64,000 nt of DNA, taken from Pyrinomonadaceae bacterium (lineage in GTDB: Bacteria; Acidobacteriota; Blastocatellia; Pyrinomonadales; Pyrinomonadaceae). Shown piece by piece: positions 32,007 to 58,524 of this stretch. Position numbers and translations under genes: made by a program. A model generated the notes under the pieces. The model saw nothing but the letters and a program-made list of their open reading frames with translations. It did no database searches and was not told the origin of the DNA. The DNA lies in contig JAHCHG010000002.1 in assembly GCA_026129865.1 (NCBI GenBank), positions 62,001-126,000 on the forward strand, read 5' to 3'. The first letter of the stretch is position 1, and each line of letters opens with the position of its first letter.

Positions 32007-32300
32007 ATGGATATCTTTGAGATCGCCAATTTCGCAATGCTTTTTCTCGCCGGTATTTTCATCGGCATGTCCGTCGGCGAACACACCGCCTTGCGCCGCG
32101 CCCGCCGTGAAATTCGCCTGCCCGCCCTGTTTCCGGTGCGAAGCGCGCGCCGGAACGCGGGTCTCCAGCCTTCCCGTTTCACGATGCGAAGTCCGCGCCG
32201 GAACGCAGGCTGCCAGCCTGCCGGTTTCCCCGCACCGGTCGCCCGGGCAAATCGCCGGATGGACGAGCGCGACATTCTAAATGCGGAGGTCATCGAATAA
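32007..32300 (+). CDS. Small membrane protein with REP-derived C-terminal part
   Basis: 97 residues with AGGAGG before the ATG. One membrane span (IANFAMLFLAGIFIGMSVG, about 6-24) is followed by a basic tail. From about residue 45 two degenerate copies of the family A palindrome are translated (as RRNAGLQPSRF and RRNAGCQPAGF). So the original protein was probably about 45 residues plus a new C-terminus captured from repeats. It could be a small holin or superinfection protein, but no specific function can be given. Its stop overlaps the next start (TAATG). Confidence 0.55.
   Translation: MDIFEIANFAMLFLAGIFIGMSVGEHTALRRARREIRLPALFPVRSARRNAGLQPSRFTMRSPRRNAGCQPAGFPAPVARANRRMDERDILNAEVIE
32150..32225 (+). 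repeat. Two tandem family A (REP-like) units inside a coding region
   Basis: Units at about 32153-32170 and 32201-32223, the second with the family's perfect core CAGGCTGCCAGCCTG. They are 48 bases apart and share the flanking GATGCGAA/GGTGCGAA. They belong to the same palindrome family that flanks the RAYT gene at 56172-56780. Confidence 0.75.
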
Positions 32301-34787: not shown

Positions 34788-36551
34788 ATGAAAACTATGT
34801 CGAACCGCAAACTCTCAGAATCGGATTGTGCCGATATTTGCGCTGCTCTTAAAGGGCTCAAGGGTGCGAAACTGTCGGCGGAAGCCGCGCGTTTAGCCGA
34901 ATTTTACCGGGTGTCCAAGGCGACGATTTACGAACGCACGCGCTCCGCGCGTCCGCGCCGCAAAAAGCGCAGCGATGCCGGAACGCGAAAGATCGATCTG
35001 ATGGAAAACGAAGCCGTTCGCGGCGTGGCGGAGTTTGTTGCCAATCAAAAACTGGCGCCGGTGCTGGCGCTCGAAACCGTCAGGGAAAATCCTCATATTT
35101 TTGGGGAACTGCCGGAAATGTCTATCGGCACCATGCGCCGGTATTTACGCGAACACGGCATCAGCCGCGTTCAGCAAACGAAAATTCGTATGATTCACAG
35201 ATCGTTTAGGGCTAAATTGCCCGGCGACATTTTTCAATTCGATATGTCGGGCGTCAAGGAACGCTGGGTCGATGTCCGCACCAGACGGATCCACAAAGTC
35301 TCCGTTCTGGAGGTTTCCAAAAATCACGCCAATCGCCGCAGCGACCGGATACCGCTCTGGAAATTTACCCTGGTCGACGATCATTCCTCGAAAAAATTTG
35401 CGCGTTTTGCCGCCTGTTCGAAACCGAACACGCTGCACGTCGTGGAGTTTTTAAAACAGGCGTTTTCGGCGATGGGTTTGCCGAAAATGCTCTATACCGA
35501 TCGCGATGCGATCATCCATAACAAACGGATGCAGCGCGGCGCGGCATTTATCAACGAGGCGTTCAAAACCAGCGGCGGATTTCAGATCGTCGCCCATACG
35601 CCGGGCAATCCGCAGGCGACCGGCAAGGTCGAACGCGCCCACCAGATCGTCGAAGAATACGAACGTCTGATCGGCATCAAAGCCGAATTCGGCAACCAGC
35701 CGCATATCGAATCGCTTAACCGGTTTGCCGATTGGATGTGCGACCGCTATAACAACCGGACACACAGCACGCTCGGTTCGGCGCCTAATATTTTGTTCAG
35801 AAATACGACCGGTGCCGTGCGCGAGATCGACCCGGCGCAGTTCGATGCCGCGTTCAAGGCTCGCGATCTGGTTTGCCGCGTCAATCCGGACGTTTCGATC
35901 GCGGTCGACGGCGTCAAATACCAGCTGTCGCGCCGCGCCGCCGATCCGTTTATCGAGCTTGCCGCCGCCGGTGCGAAGATCGAGGTTTACTGGATCGACG
36001 ACGACGATTTTTTTGCCTGCATAACGCCTGCCGGCGACGAATATATCGTCGAAAAGATCGAGGCGCGAGCCGACGATGCCGGCGAATTCAAATCCTTGCC
36101 CGAAACAAAAAGCCAATCGACGCGCAAGGCGCTCAAAGAGTCGCAGAATCTGCGAAAATCCGAGATCAAGGAGATCCAGAAAACGCAGGACGAACCCGTT
36201 CTGATCGTTCCCGGCATCGACACCGATATTCCCGAAAAAGAATCGACCGGCATTCTCGAATTTCCGCAGAAAACCGACGGGGGCGACCGCGACCGGCTTG
36301 ACGAGCTGACCCATAATATCGCCGCCGAACGCCATTACCGGCGCAATCTGGATCTCTTCGACGCGCTCGATCTGATGCAGAACGAAGGGCTTGCCCCGGC
36401 AAAACCGTGCGGCGAATTGACCGAAACCAAATCGTGGCTGCGCGGCATTTTCGCCGGACGCGATTTGATCGACGAAGACGAGCTCCGGACGGCGATCGGC
36501 GCGCGCGACCGGCGAAACGACGAACCCAAACGCGCTTTGAAATTTGCTTAA
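34788..36551 (+). CDS. MuA-like DDE transposase
   Basis: 587 residues. An N-terminal HTH (about 8-55, KATIYERTR) and basic linker precede a second DNA-binding region (about 70-130, FGELPEMSIGTMRRYLREHGIS). The rve/RNase H-like core has the acid triad D152 (FQFDMSG), D238 (LYTDRDAII) and E282 (NPQATGKVERAHQ). A beta-barrel region typical of Mu transposase C-terminal parts follows (about 360-430). The C-terminal tail is charged and probably contacts the ATPase. The protein joins phage ends to target DNA in integration and replicative transposition. The MuB-like gene starts six bases downstream. Confidence 0.93.
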   Translation: MKTMSNRKLSESDCADICAALKGLKGAKLSAEAARLAEFYRVSKATIYERTRSARPRRKKRSDAGTRKIDLMENEAVRGVAEFVANQKLAPVLALETVRENPHIFGELPEMSIGTMRRYLREHGISRVQQTKIRMIHRSFRAKLPGDIFQFDMSGVKERWVDVRTRRIHKVSVLEVSKNHANRRSDRIPLWKFTLVDDHSSKKFARFAACSKPNTLHVVEFLKQAFSAMGLPKMLYTDRDAIIHNKRMQRGAAFINEAFKTSGGFQIVAHTPGNPQATGKVERAHQIVEEYERLIGIKAEFGNQPHIESLNRFADWMCDRYNNRTHSTLGSAPNILFRNTTGAVREIDPAQFDAAFKARDLVCRVNPDVSIAVDGVKYQLSRRAADPFIELAAAGAKIEVYWIDDDDFFACITPAGDEYIVEKIEARADDAGEFKSLPETKSQSTRKALKESQNLRKSEIKEIQKTQDEPVLIVPGIDTDIPEKESTGILEFPQKTDGGDRDRLDELTHNIAAERHYRRNLDLFDALDLMQNEGLAPAKPCGELTETKSWLRGIFAGRDLIDEDELRTAIGARDRRNDEPKRALKFA

Positions 36552-36557
36552 AAAACC

Positions 36558-37697
36558 ATGATGGATTTCGACGCCTTCGACGCGTTCTTAAAACGCCATA
36601 AACTTTCCAGCCGCCGTTTTGCCGATCTCGCCGGACAATGGTCGATCGGGAAAACGAGTGTGTCGCGCCTGCGCGGCGCAAATACCGACAGCGCAGCGGT
36701 TTCGCAATCGTTTTTGCGAAAGGTCGAACCGCTGCTTATTCAAACAATAACCCGATTTCTGCAGGATACCGGTCATTCCGCCGCCGAGATTCGCGCAGAA
36801 CTTGTAAAAATTTTTGAGGAGATCCCGGATATGATCGCAACCCGTACAAAACTCGATTACGACGTTTTAGATTTTTTCGGTCTCGAACGCGACCCGTTCG
36901 CGCTCGAATCCGACCCGCGCAGCGCGCAGGAAGTTTTTAATACAAAACCGCTCGACCGGCTCGTGCGCCGCATCGAAGATGCCGTCAATTACCAGGGCTT
37001 TCTGGGCATTCTCGGCGAGGTCGGTGCGGGTAAAACGACGTTGAAAAACCGCATTGTCGACGCCCATCGGCGTTCCGGTAAAATTCATTTTCTTTTCCCG
37101 AAATTTGCCGAAATGCGCAAGGTTTCCGCCGCCGCGATAGTTTATTTCATTTTGGAATATTTCGGTCAGAAACCGCGCCAGCGTCTGGTTTCGGCTCAGG
37201 CACAGCTCGAACGCCTGCTTGCCGAACTCAACGAACGCGGCGAACGCGTCTGTCTCGGGTTCGACGAATGCCACCGGCTGCACGACGTAACGCTCACCGC
37301 TCTTAAAAACTTTTACGAACTCGGCACCGGCGGATACGACCGCTTTCTCGGGCTCGTCCTTTTCGGTCAGCCGCAGTTCGAAATGCGCCTGATCACCGCA
37401 AATTTCCGCGAGATTGCCGAACGGCTCGAGATCGTAAAAATGCCGCCGGTCGGGAAGGTCGCCGCCGAATATATCGATCACCGGCTTCGCCTGGCGGGAG
37501 GCTCGATCGACAATCTGTTCGAAAAACGCGCCGTCGAGCTGATCGCCGCCGCCGCTTCTTCGCCCCTCGCCATCGGCAATATGGCAAATAAAGCGCTCGT
37601 TGCGGCATACGAAAAAGGCGAACCAAAGGTGCTTGCCCGATTTATTGAAATAGACAAGGAACCGAAAACGTTTCGCGCCGCCCGTGCGGCTCGATAG
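36558..37697 (+). CDS. MuB-like AAA+ transposition ATPase
   Basis: 379 residues. The N-terminal region (1-95) has an HTH-like start (RHKLSSRRFADLAGQWSIGKTSVSRLRG), as MuB has a DNA-binding HTH there. The AAA+ core begins near 100 (FFGLERDPFALESDPR), with Walker A GEVGAGKTT (153-161), Walker B CLGFDECH (232-239) and a sensor region LGLVLFGQPQF. This is the ExeA/TniB/MuB type. It forms filaments on target DNA, selects targets and confers immunity near phage ends. It lies just downstream of the transposase and is presumably co-expressed. Confidence 0.9.
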   Translation: MMDFDAFDAFLKRHKLSSRRFADLAGQWSIGKTSVSRLRGANTDSAAVSQSFLRKVEPLLIQTITRFLQDTGHSAAEIRAELVKIFEEIPDMIATRTKLDYDVLDFFGLERDPFALESDPRSAQEVFNTKPLDRLVRRIEDAVNYQGFLGILGEVGAGKTTLKNRIVDAHRRSGKIHFLFPKFAEMRKVSAAAIVYFILEYFGQKPRQRLVSAQAQLERLLAELNERGERVCLGFDECHRLHDVTLTALKNFYELGTGGYDRFLGLVLFGQPQFEMRLITANFREIAERLEIVKMPPVGKVAAEYIDHRLRLAGGSIDNLFEKRAVELIAAAASSPLAIGNMANKALVAAYEKGEPKVLARFIEIDKEPKTFRAARAAR

Positions 37698-38134: not shown

Positions 38135-38340
38135 GGAGCGCAGGCTGCCAGCCTGCGCAAACCAAAGGCAGAAACGCGACCGCCAGGAAGCGTGCCCGCT
38201 TGAAAGGGCAGAAACGCGACCGCTAGGGAGCGTGCCTGCTCGCGATCGGAAAACATTTTGCCCGCGAACCAAAGGCAGAAACGCGACCGCTAGGAAGCGT
38301 GCAGACTGCAGAAACACGCACGCAGTAAGTGTGCTGACAG
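38135..38340 (+). repeat. Cluster of family A and B palindromes
   Basis: One family A unit (38135-38158) and four family B units (38167-38199, 38206-38239, 38273-38303 and 38307-38335) lie head to tail. Family B has the core AACGCGACCGCTAGGGAGCG or the variant ACACGCACGCAGTAAGTGTG. The second B unit continues into a family D fragment; this 63-base composite (38206-38268) is repeated exactly at 39035-39097. No gene is seen here. Confidence 0.85.
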
Positions 38341-38352
38341 CACGGAGGAAAG

Positions 38353-38577
38353 ATGGAAATTACAATGATGTATTCATACGAGGACGAGCGCGCCGAGCTA
38401 CTCCACCGGTGCAAACACTGCGGCTATAAACCGCAATTTCTGGAAGAGGAGGACACGCCCGCCGCGGTTGTGTGCAGCAATACCAATTGCCCGGAGATGC
38501 CGCACATTTTCGGAGAGTTTGGCGACACCGATTCAAAGATTATCGCCCTCTGGAATGCCCAGCATCCGGATCACTAG
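38353..38577 (+). CDS. Lar-like (restriction alleviation) zinc protein
   Basis: 74 residues with GGAGGAAAG before its ATG. It has HRCKHCGYKPQFLEEE, VVCSNTNCPE and the ending SKIIALWNAQ. This is the 'CPFCG...C..C.......AI..WN' plan of Lar-type proteins (CxxC...CxxxxC with a terminal WN). Lar of Rac prophage relieves type I restriction of unmodified DNA by raising host methylation. A similar role here is plausible and would fit the accessory early region, but it is inference from the motif alone. Confidence 0.6.
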   Translation: MEITMMYSYEDERAELLHRCKHCGYKPQFLEEEDTPAAVVCSNTNCPEMPHIFGEFGDTDSKIIALWNAQHPDH

Positions 38578-38634
38578 GAAAAATTTTGCCCGCGAATTAA
38601 CGCTGATTTTCGCGGATTTTATGAAGGAGAATTT

Positions 38635-39018
38635 ATGCACGTAAATAAATTGATTGAAATTTTGTCAAAACATCCGGGCGACACGCCGGTTGAAGTTTTG
38701 AGCGACTGTCCCAACCCTGAGTGCGGGTTTATTTACAGTAAAAAAGTCGTGGGCGCTTTTAGTTCCGATCGATTGAATCAGGACTCAACCGATCTCGAAC
38801 CGTGTTTGGATCTAGTTACGGACGACACCCAATACCAAGAAGTTTTTTCGGCTCAGGATAGATTGACGGAAATAAAACGGGCTTTTCTGGAATATGACGA
38901 GGCGCGCCACATCGATGAACGCTGCTTGCAAAAAGCGCTGATCAGCAAGATCAGTGAAATTCTGGACAAAGTCGACTGGATCTATTTAGAAAAACCTGCA
39001 GAAACGCGCACGAAGTAA
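38635..39018 (+). CDS. Hypothetical early protein, C-terminus read from a repeat
   Basis: 127 residues with AAGGAG before its ATG. The start, MHVNKLIEILSKHPGDTPVEVLSDCPNPECGFIY, has the 'kPxdTpVevlsDC' pattern of small phage proteins. The centre is acidic and helical (EIKRAFLEYDEARHIDERCLQKALISKISEILDKVDWIYLEK). The last residues (PAETRTK) are encoded by a family B repeat that supplies the stop, so the natural C-terminus was lost or replaced. Function unknown. Confidence 0.55.
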   Translation: MHVNKLIEILSKHPGDTPVEVLSDCPNPECGFIYSKKVVGAFSSDRLNQDSTDLEPCLDLVTDDTQYQEVFSAQDRLTEIKRAFLEYDEARHIDERCLQKALISKISEILDKVDWIYLEKPAETRTK

Positions 39019-39110
39019 GCGTGCTGCTTTAACAGGGCAGAAACGCGACCGCTAGGGAGCGTGCCTGCTCGCGATCGGAAAACATTTTGCCCGCGAAATA
39101 CGCGGAAAGG
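38998..39110 (+). repeat. Family B and D repeat cluster
   Basis: Family B units at 38998-39026 (variant with CACGAAGTAAGCGTG) and 39035-39068 are followed by a family D composite up to about 39110. The first unit overlaps the end of the previous gene. The composite 39035-39097 is identical to 38206-38268. Confidence 0.85.
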
Positions 39111-39141
39111 CGCGGAAGGAGTTTTGCCCGCGAAAATATAT

Positions 39142-39381
39142 ATGAGATATCTTCTCGAAATCGGACAGTGCGGAGTTGTCAGCCAAAATTATGAGTACAC
39201 CAGGCTCGCCTTAGGAGTCCTGCGTTTAATCACTTTTCAACAAGAATCAATGTCTGACAGCGTTGACTTTTTAACTAAGCGATTTTACGAGAAATTCGCG
39301 CCTTACGGCTGTTACGCAAGAATTTCAGATATGAGCACCGGAAAGGTCGTATTTACAAACAAAAGTGAGTTTAGATATTGA
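39142..39381 (+). CDS. Small hypothetical protein
   Basis: I start it at 39142; the frame extends left only through repeat sequence (39061-39141), which is not credible coding. The 79-residue product MRYLLEIGQCGVVSQNYEYTRLALGVLRLITFQQESMSDSVDFLTKRFYEKFAPYGCYARISDMSTGKVVFTNKSEFRY has no recognised domain. Its ATG lacks a strong ribosome site but follows an AT-rich stretch. It lies alone between repeat clusters, a typical accessory gene place. Confidence 0.45.
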   Translation: MRYLLEIGQCGVVSQNYEYTRLALGVLRLITFQQESMSDSVDFLTKRFYEKFAPYGCYARISDMSTGKVVFTNKSEFRY

Positions 39382-39393
39382 ATTTCCGGTTTA

Positions 39394-39430
39394 AGGCAGA
39401 AACGCGACCGCCAGGAAGCGTGCCTGCTCG
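39394..39430 (+). repeat. Family B repeat unit
   Basis: One unit with AACGCGACCGCCAGGAAGCG after the preceding gene's stop. A short hairpin-like extension follows to about 39440. It separates two small accessory genes. Confidence 0.8.
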
Positions 39431-41629: not shown

Positions 41630-41974
41630 GAAAGTCTTTCGCCCAAAAGGGATGAAAAATGAAATCGACCCAAAAAATCCGACAATAAATTGCCCCGCCT
41701 GCTTATTTAATCCCAACACAGATCAGTTCGGATCTTCACACGACCCGATAATCTTTCCAACCTTTTACATCCATCAACCCATCAAGTATTATCTTCGTTT
41801 TGCCTGCGGGCGTCTTTACGGGCTTTCCGCGTATGCAATGCTTAAACTTTTCCCGAAACCTGACCGGAACCGTTTCATTATTTCCATTTTCAAGTTTCCA
41901 GAAATCAGCCGGCTGATCGCCGGTCATCTTTTTTATTGACCGGCGCCGATCATTTGCCCGCGGATTTTTATTTA

Positions 41975-46118: not shown

Positions 46119-48371
46119 ATGAATTTACTGAAATTAAATCTTGAAAATTGCTACGGCATAAAAAAATTGGAAACAAATTTTGACTTCTCAGCCCTTAAGA
46201 CAATCGCAGTCTATGCTCCGAACGGAGTTATGAAGACATCGCTCGCAAAAGCGTTTAGAGATTTATCTAGGGGCGAGGAGTCACGGGACCTGATTTATCC
46301 TGACCGAAAAACTCTACGAGATATTAGGGACGAAAATGATGTCGATATAGCGAAAGAGGATGTTTTTGTTGTCTTAAGATATTCGGAGGAGTTCTCTTCT
46401 GAGCGGATGTCTTCGCTCGTCGCTCGAAAAGAGTTAAAAAAAGAATATGATCTAATTCAAGCAGACATTGATGATAGAAAAAAAGCGTTTTTGAAGGTTT
46501 TAAAACCGCTATCGGGACTTAGTGGCTATAACGATAATATTGAATTAGCAATTGAGAAGGCGTTTAAAGGGGAATTCTTTGACGTACTCGAAGAGGTAAA
46601 GGCTGATGTGATTAGCGGTTTCTCACCCCCATTTTCTGAAGTACGGTATGCGGAAATCTTCGATGACAAGATACTGGCGTTTCTCAATACTAAAGATTTT
46701 CGAGGTCTCCTAAAGGAATATATCGAAAAATACGACGAGCTAATTCAGAACTCGAAATATCTTAAAAAGGGCTTTAATCACTACAATGCGTTAACCATTC
46801 ACACAAACTTACTTAAACATGGCTTTTTTCACGCCAGCCATTCGCTAAATCTCTATGATGGAATCTCTAAGACAGAAATTTCCGATGCTGATACGCTGGA
46901 AGAGACAATACGCTGCGAGCTTGAATCAGTTTTAAACGATCAGGATTTAAAAAAGCGATTCGATGAGATTGACAAAAGGCTTACCAACGACCAGTTACGA
47001 GGATTTCGCAACTACTTATTTGATCACAAAGAATTACTAACCGAGCTCGCGGATCTAGATAATTTCGCAAAAAATATATGGATCTCTTATTTCATCAAAG
47101 AACGAGAAATCTATTTGGAATTAATGAAGCAGTATGAGAAAGGAAAACAGCGAATTATAGAGATTGCAAAACTTGCGAATGATGAGCAAACCGAGTGGGA
47201 ACGCGTAGTACGCCAGTTTAACGAACGATTCACACCGCCTTTTAGAGTCTTCTTGGAAAATAAACGGGATTCCATTCTAAAAGGAAATATTCCTAGTTTA
47301 GGTTTTGATTTCCACGATTTCTCCAATAACAATGGAAAGAAATTGATTGATCGCACAAGTCTTCTAGAGGTGCTAAGTGAGGGGGAAAAAAGAGCGTTTT
47401 ATCTTCTAAATATTATCTTCGAAGTTGAAGCGCGGAAAAAACTTAACTCCAACACAGTATTCATTGTCGATGACATAGCGGACTCCTTTGACTACAAAAA
47501 TAAATATGCAATCGTTGAATACCTTAAGGAGATTTCAACGACCTCAAATTTTAATCAACTTATCCTTACTCATAACTTTGATTTTTTTAGGACTATTCAA
47601 GGAAGAATTCTTGGCAATGCAAGATGGAAGAACTCCTTTGTTTCCCAAAGAGATGAAGAGGGAATTGTACTCGTTAAGGGTGGAAGCAAAAATGTTTGCA
47701 ATCCGTTTTCAAATTGGCGCAAGAGTATCAACGACGACCAAAAGGTAGTGATCGCAACAATCCCCTTTGCGCGCAATTTATTTGAATTTAAAGACGGAAA
47801 TAAATCACCAGAGTTCTTGTTTCTAACACATCTGTTACATCAAAAGCCCGAAAAAGAATATAAAAAGTCAGGCTGCATAGTACCTGAAACTAAAAAAATC
47901 TCACTTAAAGATCTTAAGGAAGTGGTTGAGAAGTTAATTTCTAATGTAAGTTTCGATAAATTTGACCTATCAATGTCCGTGATTGATATTATCTATAGAT
48001 GTGCAGACGAGTTGTTGACTTCACCTGTACCGAATGAAATCGTGCTTGAGAATAAGATTGTGCTTTCTATAGCAATAAGATTGAGAGCTGAAGAATACAT
48101 ATTATCCAAGATTTCGGATCAATCCGAGATAAAAGAAAGCCAAACCGGGATTTTAGTTGATCGATTCAAGCGCGAGTTTGGAAGCAACCCAAAACAATTT
48201 GAAGCTGAAAATAAAATCATTCCGCTTTTGAATAGGGTAAATTTGATTACCCCGGAGAACATTCATATTAATTCATTTATGTACGAGCCGATCCTAGATA
48301 TGTCGGACAACCATCTTAAATCACTTTATTCTGATATTGTCGCTAATTGCAGTGTAAAGGTTGGTAATTAA
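46119..48371 (+). CDS. Stand-alone ABC/SMC-type ATPase, likely defence-related
   Basis: 750 residues with GGGAGG before its ATG. Walker A is YAPNGVMKTS (32-41), a variant lacking the usual GKS. A long coiled-coil middle follows, then the ABC signature LSEGEKRAFYLL (about 420), Walker B TVFIVDDIADSFD (about 450) and an H-loop LILTHNFDFF (about 480). The C-terminal 250 residues form a further domain that contains IVLSIAIRLRAEEYILSKI. This 'APNGxxKT' and 'VDDIADSFD' combination is typical of large ATPases of mobile and anti-phage loci (RloC/PrrC and related stand-alone forms). The gene is clearly AT-rich compared with its neighbours. No second component is adjacent, so it may act alone. Confidence 0.75.
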   Translation: MNLLKLNLENCYGIKKLETNFDFSALKTIAVYAPNGVMKTSLAKAFRDLSRGEESRDLIYPDRKTLRDIRDENDVDIAKEDVFVVLRYSEEFSSERMSSLVARKELKKEYDLIQADIDDRKKAFLKVLKPLSGLSGYNDNIELAIEKAFKGEFFDVLEEVKADVISGFSPPFSEVRYAEIFDDKILAFLNTKDFRGLLKEYIEKYDELIQNSKYLKKGFNHYNALTIHTNLLKHGFFHASHSLNLYDGISKTEISDADTLEETIRCELESVLNDQDLKKRFDEIDKRLTNDQLRGFRNYLFDHKELLTELADLDNFAKNIWISYFIKEREIYLELMKQYEKGKQRIIEIAKLANDEQTEWERVVRQFNERFTPPFRVFLENKRDSILKGNIPSLGFDFHDFSNNNGKKLIDRTSLLEVLSEGEKRAFYLLNIIFEVEARKKLNSNTVFIVDDIADSFDYKNKYAIVEYLKEISTTSNFNQLILTHNFDFFRTIQGRILGNARWKNSFVSQRDEEGIVLVKGGSKNVCNPFSNWRKSINDDQKVVIATIPFARNLFEFKDGNKSPEFLFLTHLLHQKPEKEYKKSGCIVPETKKISLKDLKEVVEKLISNVSFDKFDLSMSVIDIIYRCADELLTSPVPNEIVLENKIVLSIAIRLRAEEYILSKISDQSEIKESQTGILVDRFKREFGSNPKQFEAENKIIPLLNRVNLITPENIHINSFMYEPILDMSDNHLKSLYSDIVANCSVKVGN

Positions 48372-55970: not shown

Positions 55971-56084
55971 GTAATTCAAAGTTAAAGTGTTTTGCTATAT
56001 TCTCATCAGAATTTCATTTCATTCTTTTCAGCAAAACAATTGCCTCTTAAAAACCCGCGTCAGCGTGGCAGACAAAGCGGAATG

Positions 56085-56200
56085 GGAGCGCAGGCTGCCA
56101 GCCTGCGTGTGGAATTCATAAACGTTGCTTCCAAAAGTCATACTCGCAGGCAAGCTGCCTGCGCTCCGTTTTTACTCACCGGCTGGCAGCCCGCGCTCCG
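56085..56200. repeat. Family A (REP) units left of the RAYT gene
   Basis: Three units: 56085-56111 (plus), 56143-56168 (minus) and 56178-56200 (minus), each with the core GCAGGCTGCCAGCCTGC or a variant, flanked by GGAGC. The third overlaps the RAYT 3' end. Opposite orientations give potential long hairpins. Confidence 0.9.
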
Positions 56201-56780
56201 TCTCCCGTCGATGCCAGGCGCTCGAAAATCGCCATTCGTTTTGATTTTCACATAATCCGGCTTTTACAGGATTTCTTTCAATGTAGTTGAACGCTTTCTC
56301 GAAATGTTCACAGTCGCGAATGTATCGGTCGAACGGTTCGGGAAACCAAAATCTTCCGGTTCGATTCAATAGTTTGTTTGCCTTTGTCGAAGTATAAGAT
56401 TTACAAGAATGCACGATCTCGCTGAGTGAAAAGCCCGCTTTTGGAGTGAGCAGCAAATGCATATGATTTGGCATGATGACCCATGCGTGAAGTTTGTATT
56501 TAATATCGGCGAATTTTAGGATGTTTTCCTCGACTATTTCTGCAATTTCGGGTTGGCGAAGGTAGCACTTGCCGATACCTTGATCTAAATATTTTTCGAC
56601 CTGAATGACTTTTTCCCGCTCAGTTATCAATTCCCGCTCGAGCTGAAATTCGAGATTTCTCAACACGTTTTGCGGAAGCGAATCTGCAAGTCTGTATGTC
56701 AAAAATTGAGTGATCTGTCCGCCATCGTAATGCGGCAAATAACCTCTGGAATACCAGCCTTTTGGAGATTTTTCGGTCAT
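56172..56780 (-). CDS. REP-associated tyrosine transposase (RAYT, Y1/IS200-like)
   Basis: 202 residues of the Y1 HUH transposase family: an N-terminal beta strand block (YSRGYLPHYDGGQITQFLTYRLADSLPQ), the metal-binding HMH motif at 106-108 (WVIMPNHMHLLLTP) and the catalytic Tyr at 153 (FDRYIRDCEHFEKAFNYIERNPVKAGL). REP-associated members nick and join palindromic repeats as single strands. The last residues (RGLPAGE) are read from a flanking REP unit, which also supplies the stop. Five REP units lie within 90 bases on both sides, so the gene sits in its own repeat bed. It is likely still active or recently so. Confidence 0.92.
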   Translation of the reverse strand: MTEKSPKGWYSRGYLPHYDGGQITQFLTYRLADSLPQNVLRNLEFQLERELITEREKVIQVEKYLDQGIGKCYLRQPEIAEIVEENILKFADIKYKLHAWVIMPNHMHLLLTPKAGFSLSEIVHSCKSYTSTKANKLLNRTGRFWFPEPFDRYIRDCEHFEKAFNYIERNPVKAGLCENQNEWRFSSAWHRRETERGLPAGE

Positions 56781-56787
56781 ATTCGAC

Positions 56788-56877
56788 GGAGCGCCGGCTG
56801 CCAGCCTGCGTGTGTTGCTTTAAGGTACCAAGTTTTTTTAAATACTAACTACTCGCAGGCTGGCAGCCTGCGCTCCG
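56788..56877. repeat. Family A (REP) units right of the RAYT gene
   Basis: Two units in inverted order: 56788-56814 (plus) and 56851-56877 (minus, directly touching the hutU stop at 56878). Cores are GCCGGCTGCCAGCCTGC and GCAGGCTGGCAGCCTGC. Confidence 0.9.
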
Positions 56878-58524
56878 TTAGATCATCGGAATTTTAACAT
56901 CATTTTTCTTGGCGAAATCAATCGCTTCCGTGTAACCCGCGTCAACATGGCGGACGACACCCATTCCGGGGTCGGTCGTGAGAACTCGTTCGATACGTCT
57001 GGCTGCTTCGGGCGTGCCGTCGGCGACGATTACTTGTCCGGCGTGGAGTGAATAGCCGATGCCGACTCCGCCGCCGTGATGAAGGGAAACCCACGTTGCG
57101 CCGCCGACGGCGTTTATCATTGCGTTTAAATAAACCCAATCGGCGATCGCGTCCGAGCCGTCTTTCATCGCTTCGGTTTCGCGGTTGGGCGAAGCGACGC
57201 TGCCGCAGTCGAGATGGTCGCGCCCGATGACGATTGGTGCTTTTAATTCGCCGCTTGCAACCATTTCGTTTAACTTTAATCCGGCTTTTGCACGTTCGCC
57301 GTAGCCGAGCCAGCAGATTCTCGCGGGCAAACCTTGAAATTCGACCTGTTCCTGAGCCATTGTGAGCCATCTTGTCAAATGATCGTTTTCGGGGAAAAGA
57401 TTCATTATCGCTTCGTCGGTTTTGTAGATGTCTTCTTTTTCGCCGGAGAGTGCGACCCAGCGGAAAGGTCCTTTGCCTTCGCAGAAAAGCGGGCGGATGT
57501 ATGCGGGAACAAAGCCGGGATAATCGAAGGCGTTTTGGACGCCGTTGTCCAAAGCTCTCTGGCGTAGATTGTTGCCGTAATCAAAGACAATCGCACCTCG
57601 CTTTTGAAATTCGAGCATTGCTTCAACGTGCGTCGCCATCGAATCCATCGCGCGTTTTTCGTATTCGGTTTGGTTTGATTTGCGGAGTTCATTTGCTTCT
57701 TCGATTGATAAACCTTGCGGAATATAGCCGAAAAGAACGTCGTGCGCGGAAGTCTGATCGGTAACGACATCGGGAATTATCCCGCGTTCTAATATCTGCC
57801 AATGAACATCAGCCGCGTTGCCCAAAAGCGCGATGGATTTCGCTTCGCCTTTATCGGTAAATTCTTTCACAAGCCGCAAAGCATCGTCCAAATCTTTCGC
57901 TTCCATATCAACCTGTTTGAGCTGCAAACGCCGTTCAATGCGCCACGGATCAACATCAACAAGCAAACCGACACCGCCGTTAAAAGTTATCGCCTGCGCC
58001 TGCGCTCCGCCCATTTCGCCTAAACCGGCGGTCAAGACAAATTTCCCTGAAAGATCACCCCAACCGTTTTGTCTTGCGAGAGAACCGAAAGTTTCATAAG
58101 TTCCTTGCAAAATCCCTTGCGTCCCGATATAAATCCAACTTCCGGCAGTCATCTGTCCATACATCATCAAACCTTCGCGCTCGTATGTGTCAAACTGTTC
58201 CTGCGTCGCCCAATGCGGCACGATGTTCGTATTGGCGATCAAAACTTTCGGCGCGTCCGCGTGCGTTTTAAAAACCGCGACAGGTTTTCCTGACTGCACA
58301 AGCAGAGTTTCGTCCGCTTCCAAATTTTTCAAACTTTCCAGAATCGCGTCAAACGAATCCCAATCCCGCGCCGCTTTTCCGCGTCCGCCGTAAACGATCA
58401 AATTGTCGGGATCGAACGCGACATCCGGGTCGAGGTTGTTTTGAATCATTCGATACGCAGCTTCGGAAAGCCAGTTTTTACAGGTCAGGTCGCTGCCTGT
58501 CGGTGCTTTTATCTTTCTTGTCAT
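56878..58524 (-). CDS. hutU: Urocanate hydratase
   Basis: 548 residues, full length for the family. It converts urocanate to imidazolone propionate, the second step of histidine degradation (EC 4.2.1.49), with NAD+ as a tightly bound cofactor. Hallmarks are [33 protein letters not shown], the Gly-rich [12 protein letters not shown] of the NAD+ site and [22 protein letters not shown]. The active-site block [29 protein letters not shown] and the late [21 protein letters not shown] complete it. No other hut gene is in the window, so the pathway is split or incomplete here. The gene ends exactly at a REP unit. Confidence 0.97.

Follow-up and report, generated by a model that had tools for sequence, protein, structure and literature searches.

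Genes and palindromes at the RAYT locus

The stretch of DNA analyzed here (the window; 64,000 nucleotides, G000:C12:62001-126000 of a 4.4-Mb genome) contains a Y1 HUH transposase gene adjacent to the urocanate hydratase gene hutU, as well as a Mu-like prophage farther to the left (Table 1). The 202-aa transposase has an HMH motif at residues 106-108 and a putative catalytic tyrosine at position 166. It scores 84.1 bits against the NF047646 REP_Tyr_transpos model, above the cut-off of 80, and also matches Pfam Y1_Tnp; the generic IS200 model gives 24.9, below that model's cut-off of 55. A sequence match to the E. coli TnpA-REP protein (PDB 4er8, E=1.8e-8) covers residues 91-198 and aligns the HMH and NYIERNP motifs with the corresponding HUH and tyrosine motifs of 4er8, although the host protein has a longer N-terminus and is associated with a different palindrome. 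Judged by these matches, the gene encodes a genuine REP-associated tyrosine transposase (RAYT), whose closest named relative is found in Pyrinomonadaceae bacterium Bin_76_1.

As stated in a first-pass annotation of this DNA, five palindromes of one family (family A) flank RAYT on both sides. Read GGAG-first, the palindrome is GGAG-CGCAGGCTGsCAGCCTGCG, and the GGAG heads are at 56085(+), 56167(-), 56199(-), 56788(+), and 56876(-). Two units have the exact core, one carries a single substitution, one belongs to the CAGGCAGCTTGCCTG subtype, and one is decayed; they are arranged as one inverted pair on each side of the gene plus the decayed unit at its 3′ end. Computed as single strands, both pairs fold as long hairpins, whereas folding of the decayed unit (56172-56199) was no better than that of shuffled sequences. 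In five shuffled windows, the same hairpin scan returned 0-2 units, and in 108 kb of control DNA it returned 3; taken with the strong folding of the pairs, this indicates that the RAYT-flanking palindromes exceed chance.

The decayed unit encodes the last eight codons of RAYT (ERGLPAGE) together with its stop codon, confirming the proposal that the 3′ end of the gene is made by a REP; the 3′ end also lies within a REP unit in several RAYT orthologs. Transposase ends overlapped by REPs were described earlier by Di Nocera et al. 2013 (PMC3733652). The parallel proposal for the end of hutU proved incorrect: hutU matches TIGR01228 over its entire length (positions 1-545 of 545), and the neighboring unit merely abuts its TAA (56880-56878), one base from the GGAG head. 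In other genomes, RAYT genes occur in frame inside long ORFs (L064/L065 in G073 and G077, L069 in G062, and L051 in G096) that carry DNA methylase domains (DUF1156; N6_N4_Mtase) or an aminotransferase, such that REP units are translated at these loci.

Table 1. Positions of the RAYT, REP, hutU, and prophage features within the window
Feature	Position	Strand	Evidence or remark
Two 48-nt tandem repeats, GGAACG-headed units	32114..32222	+	In frame in small early phage gene 32007-32300
MuA-type transposase and MuB-type transposition protein	34788..37697	+	phrog_310 4e-31, phrog_296 5e-19
REP family A unit in prophage, perfect	38135..38157	+	No inverted partner
Second repeat family GGCAGAAACGCGACCGCYAGGRAGCGTGC, five units	38167..39423	+	Starts 38167, 38207, 38274, 39036, 39395
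Decayed copy of hutU 3′ end	56003..56075	-	Local alignment score 66 vs best 38 in 2000 shuffles
REPIN (inverted pair) downstream of RAYT	56083..56169	.	Fold -29.2 kcal/mol, z -5.6
REP family A unit, exact	56085..56107	+	
REP family A unit, CAGCTTG subtype	56145..56167	-	
Decayed REP unit coding RAYT C-terminus (ERGLPAGE) and stop	56172..56199	-	
RAYT gene	56172..56780	-	202 aa, Y1 HUH transposase
REPIN (inverted pair) upstream of RAYT	56786..56878	.	Fold -36.7 kcal/mol, z -9.75
REP family A unit, one substitution	56788..56810	+	
REP family A unit, exact, one base off hutU stop codon	56854..56876	-	
hutU, urocanate hydratase, full length	56878..58524	-	TIGR01228 938 bits, positions 1-545/545

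Family A in the host genome and its relation to RAYT

Pattern searches of the host genome identified 17 exact GGARCG-headed sites, 16 of which are GGAG, and ~43 family-A sites at <=3 mismatches when the two strands of one palindrome are merged; a reversed-pattern control returned 0 sites. Among adjacent sites <=150 bp apart, 11 pairs are head-out, with their GGAG heads facing outward, and 0 are head-in, which is REPIN geometry. Of the other adjacent cases, 6 are head-to-tail and 1 is a same-direction minus pair; 12 sites are solitary. GGAACG heads are present in the host genome in the CAGCCTG subtype. One locus (L099, G000:C15:4156-4438) holds a head-to-tail family-A array with 46-58 bp steps; doublets are found elsewhere.

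The host genome has 13 Y1 transposase matches, about 7 of them RAYT-like. Palindromes of other types adjoin the Y1 genes L007, L008, L010, and L013, and repeats adjoin L011; no palindrome or repeat was found in the neighborhood of L012. A better-fitting RAYT elsewhere in the genome was ruled out, as the hairpins at the other RAYT-like genes are of different kinds, where any were found. L007, the closest paralog of RAYT, contains an internal TGA and has its own palindrome, GGAGCGCGGACGGCTCGTCCGCG.

Across 97 genomes (host included), RAYT was detected at E<=1e-20 in 34, and the GGAG palindrome is confined to the host and G037, a genome from the host's family whose RAYT is the most similar to that of the host (77%) and has four GGAG units around it. 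When the search was extended to 396 genomes of the phylum, the GGARCG form was present in the host and, as GGAACG, in two further family members. The claim that this RAYT lies inside its own REP family therefore holds up, since the other RAYT-like genes of the host are accompanied by different palindromes or by none that was found, and the GGAG head with this subtype is present in 2 of the 97 genomes.

Most related RAYTs are accompanied by palindromes of their own, with heads such as GGAA or GGTA. Of 31 such loci, 24 carry GG[AT][AG]CG-headed hairpins, and the flanks of RAYT loci contain 64 units in 24 kb (2.7/kb) versus 3 in 108 kb of control DNA (0.03/kb), an enrichment somewhat favored by the hairpin definition, which was set after inspection of some RAYT loci. 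The hairpin arms differ among loci with pairing preserved, and arm similarity follows RAYT similarity (Mantel correlation 0.33, 11 of 5000 permutations). Established here are the gene itself, cognate palindromes on its two sides, a population of units across the genome with invariant head-out geometry, joint occurrence of palindrome and RAYT subtype, and correlated change of RAYT and hairpin.

Repeats of the hutU 3′ end

On its side away from hutU, the RAYT-REP block is bordered by a decayed copy of the hutU 3′ end (56003-56075), and in several relatives this place is a hot spot for insertions. The first-pass annotation had missed this copy, as well as the five prophage units of a second repeat family (38167-39423). 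Partial hutU-3′ copies also enclose the block in G037, with the same left junction (CTAACGGAGC), implying that the arrangement either existed in a common ancestor or was transferred whole. G037, G022, G026, and G032 contain additional partial copies separated by genes, which include PIN (twice), nucleotidyltransferase-like, HAD/TM, PDC-S28 helicase, and esterase genes; genes of these kinds are bordered by the copies in G037 and G022. Several of the enclosed genes (PDC-S28, PIN, HAD/TM) resemble defense or toxin genes. The repeat loci comprise 56003-56075 and 56878 in the window and L094, L143, L144, L145, and L148. A literature search for urocanate hydratase as an integration site or genomic island found nothing.

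Collectively, the hutU-end repeats look like the outcome of serial insertion that duplicates the target end, or of a cassette system. Insertion with long target duplication is associated with restriction-modification genes. The resemblance to the present case lies in the long direct repeats, derived from the target gene, that frame a gene block: hutU 3′ copies flank the G037 block on both sides, and the far copy in the window is decayed yet significant. The hutU site differs in having many different single genes and a recurrent sharp boundary.

The odds are about even that the REP-RAYT-REP block is a passenger of such a process, separate from RAYT itself, in which single genes, accompanied by a copy of the hutU 3′ end, are added at that site. 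If so, RAYT activity would not be the explanation of its own location. Passenger status would account for the partial copies on either side of the block in G037 and for those bordering other genes in G037 and G022, for the sharp start of many copies near GTCCGCCACGTTGACGCGGG, and for the host's sole second match to the hutU core being situated across the RAYT block from hutU; it accords less well with the decay of the window copy and with the failure to find a recombinase in the stretches examined. It also addresses location only and is compatible with the RAYT-REPIN explanation developed below. More tentatively, and with somewhat lower probability, the Pyrinomonadaceae hutU 3′ end may be a site-specific, cassette-like target that receives serial single genes, several of them defense- or toxin-like, each bringing a replacement hutU 3′ end that starts near a fixed core (GTCCGCCACGTTGACGCGGG); the RAYT-REP block would be one such cassette, and the REP system could thus move between genera as cargo.

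REP units in a Mu-like prophage

Genes of the MuA and MuB types occur in the window together with tape measure, capsid, protease, portal, terminase, and endolysin genes (PHROGs; minus strand, 6.5-26.8 kb), as in Mu-like phages. GC content differs between the phage and host parts of the window, and a sulfate permease gene at 41936 points to host DNA beyond the right edge of the prophage, which lies before that gene. In the adjacent DNA on this side, 46119-48371 encodes a 750-aa protein matching the candidate defense model PDC-S46 and phrog_38705.

Family-A palindromes had been reported inside the prophage at 32153-32225 and 38135-38158. The 17-nt core is indeed found at 32205 and 38140, but the former interval corresponds to the two 48-nt tandem repeats, only the second of which keeps a good palindrome (32200-32222), headed GGAACG, not GGAG. 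The unit at 38135 directly follows a short ORF downstream of MuB. In G056, the phage gene at the place of 32007-32300 is 29 codons shorter (68 vs 97) and lacks the repeat part, although similarity is weak; this one distant homolog suggests that the repeats may have inserted in frame into an early phage gene. The second repeat family has 78 exact core copies in the host genome and also surrounds the Y1 gene L011, so that the prophage appears to have received units of two repeat families. Units of this second family (GGCAGAAACGCGACCG...) cluster in the prophage early region and at C12:56786-58378, some 4-5 kb left of the window.

No RAYT is present inside the prophage, and its family-A units have no inverted partner and are not REPIN doublets; REP singlets are viewed by Bertels and Rainey as defunct remnants (PMC3116915). 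Stretches homologous to the prophage lack the REP inserts, and 0 family-A units were counted in four related prophage stretches. A related stretch (L090) contains a short GGAACG hairpin. Scanning IMG/VR with the phage MuB and MuA proteins revealed no relatives, and scanning with the 17-nt core returned 19 stretches, of which nearly all lack the GGAG head; L083 has it. The viral contig L081 (IMGVR_UViG_3300032007_002673) has a GGAATG-headed family-A-like core beside a GGAGTGCGGAC unit; the palindrome beside this core, GGAGTGCGGACGGCTCGTCCGC, resembles the L007 family. An argument for phage transfer from these core matches (L083, L081) was set aside as too little evidence.

The phage appears to be a recipient of REP units. 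The earlier suggestion that the REP system extends into a mobile phage and could spread between hosts is borne out for location, given the MuA/MuB-type genes and a homologous phage without the inserts. Spread by the phage is not demonstrated, because doublets and a phage RAYT are absent, the four related prophages lack family-A units, and IMG/VR yielded no relative. It is correspondingly improbable that the prophage acted as a vehicle carrying REP families between hosts, with the GGAACG unit at 32200 derived from a host such as G032 or G432. The exact palindrome of that unit, GGAACGCAGGCTGCCAGCCTGC, has one occurrence in the host genome, located in the prophage, compared with 13 in G032 and 2 in G432 of the same family, and the phage GC content is unlike that of the host part of the window; however, the host itself has GGAACG heads (CAGCCTG subtype), a single substitution suffices to convert GGAGCG to GGAACG, and the sequences flanking the G032 units differ from those around the unit at 32200, which speaks against its foreign origin.

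Nature of the system and proposed mechanism

With a probability of about 0.88, the locus represents a 'REPtron', a RAYT-REPIN unit belonging to the established systems related to IS200/IS605, with GGAG in place of GTAG as its tag. RAYT is flanked by REPs of its own family (five units, and likewise in G037), and the family occurs mostly as inverted doublets in fixed orientation, 12 singlets notwithstanding. In common with RAYT/REP/REPIN systems (Nunvar 2010, PMC2817692; Bertels and Rainey 2011, PMC3116915), a Y1 HUH transposase lies between its own tagged palindromes, inverted doublets are formed, and several RAYTs per genome each have their own palindrome. The host differs from those systems in its tag (GGAG/GGAA vs GTAG or GTGG) and in having only ~43 sites, two of them in a prophage. 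These two features, low copy number and tag, are points against this explanation: PMC2817692 gives >100 copies per genome as usual for REP families, and, in place of the unpaired GTAG at one end that defines the GTAG-tagged REP superfamily, the head is GGAG here and GGAA or GGTA in relatives. REPs over transposase ends and within ORFs are shared with the REPtrons, intragenic REPs, and TIRtrons of Di Nocera 2013 (PMC3733652); that paper lists TIR-flanked, not REP-flanked, transposases in Acidobacteria, whereas the Pyrinomonadaceae RAYTs described here have tagged REPs.

It is very improbable that the palindromes act as terminators or some other kind of host signal, form no transposase target family, and lie near RAYT incidentally, for although several units directly follow stop codons, enrichment at related RAYT genes is nearly 100-fold, the arms are specific to each RAYT, doublet geometry is fixed, and no T run follows the units.

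For the RAYT-REPIN unit, a mechanism can be proposed by analogy with TnpA-REP, in which the Y1 HUH protein would bind single-stranded units of its own family at the unpaired GGAG head and hairpin and would cut and mobilize inverted doublets (REPINs) in trans, while the RAYT gene itself would remain in place behind hutU. The prophage copies were probably deposited during residence of the phage in the present host or in another, related member of the Pyrinomonadaceae, the presumed direction of transfer being into the phage; both repeat families would have contributed units, of which those of family A are now solitary and probably inert.

These results extend tagged REP-RAYT systems to the acidobacterial family Pyrinomonadaceae, with a tag shifted to GGAG. 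Since head and arms vary with the transposase, the family offers natural pairs for testing how RAYTs read hairpins. Two repeat families have settled in a Mu-like prophage, a point of modest interest, in that REP insertion could be dated against the phage. The hutU-end repeats provide a separate lead on the movement of single defense-like genes, worth a study of its own.
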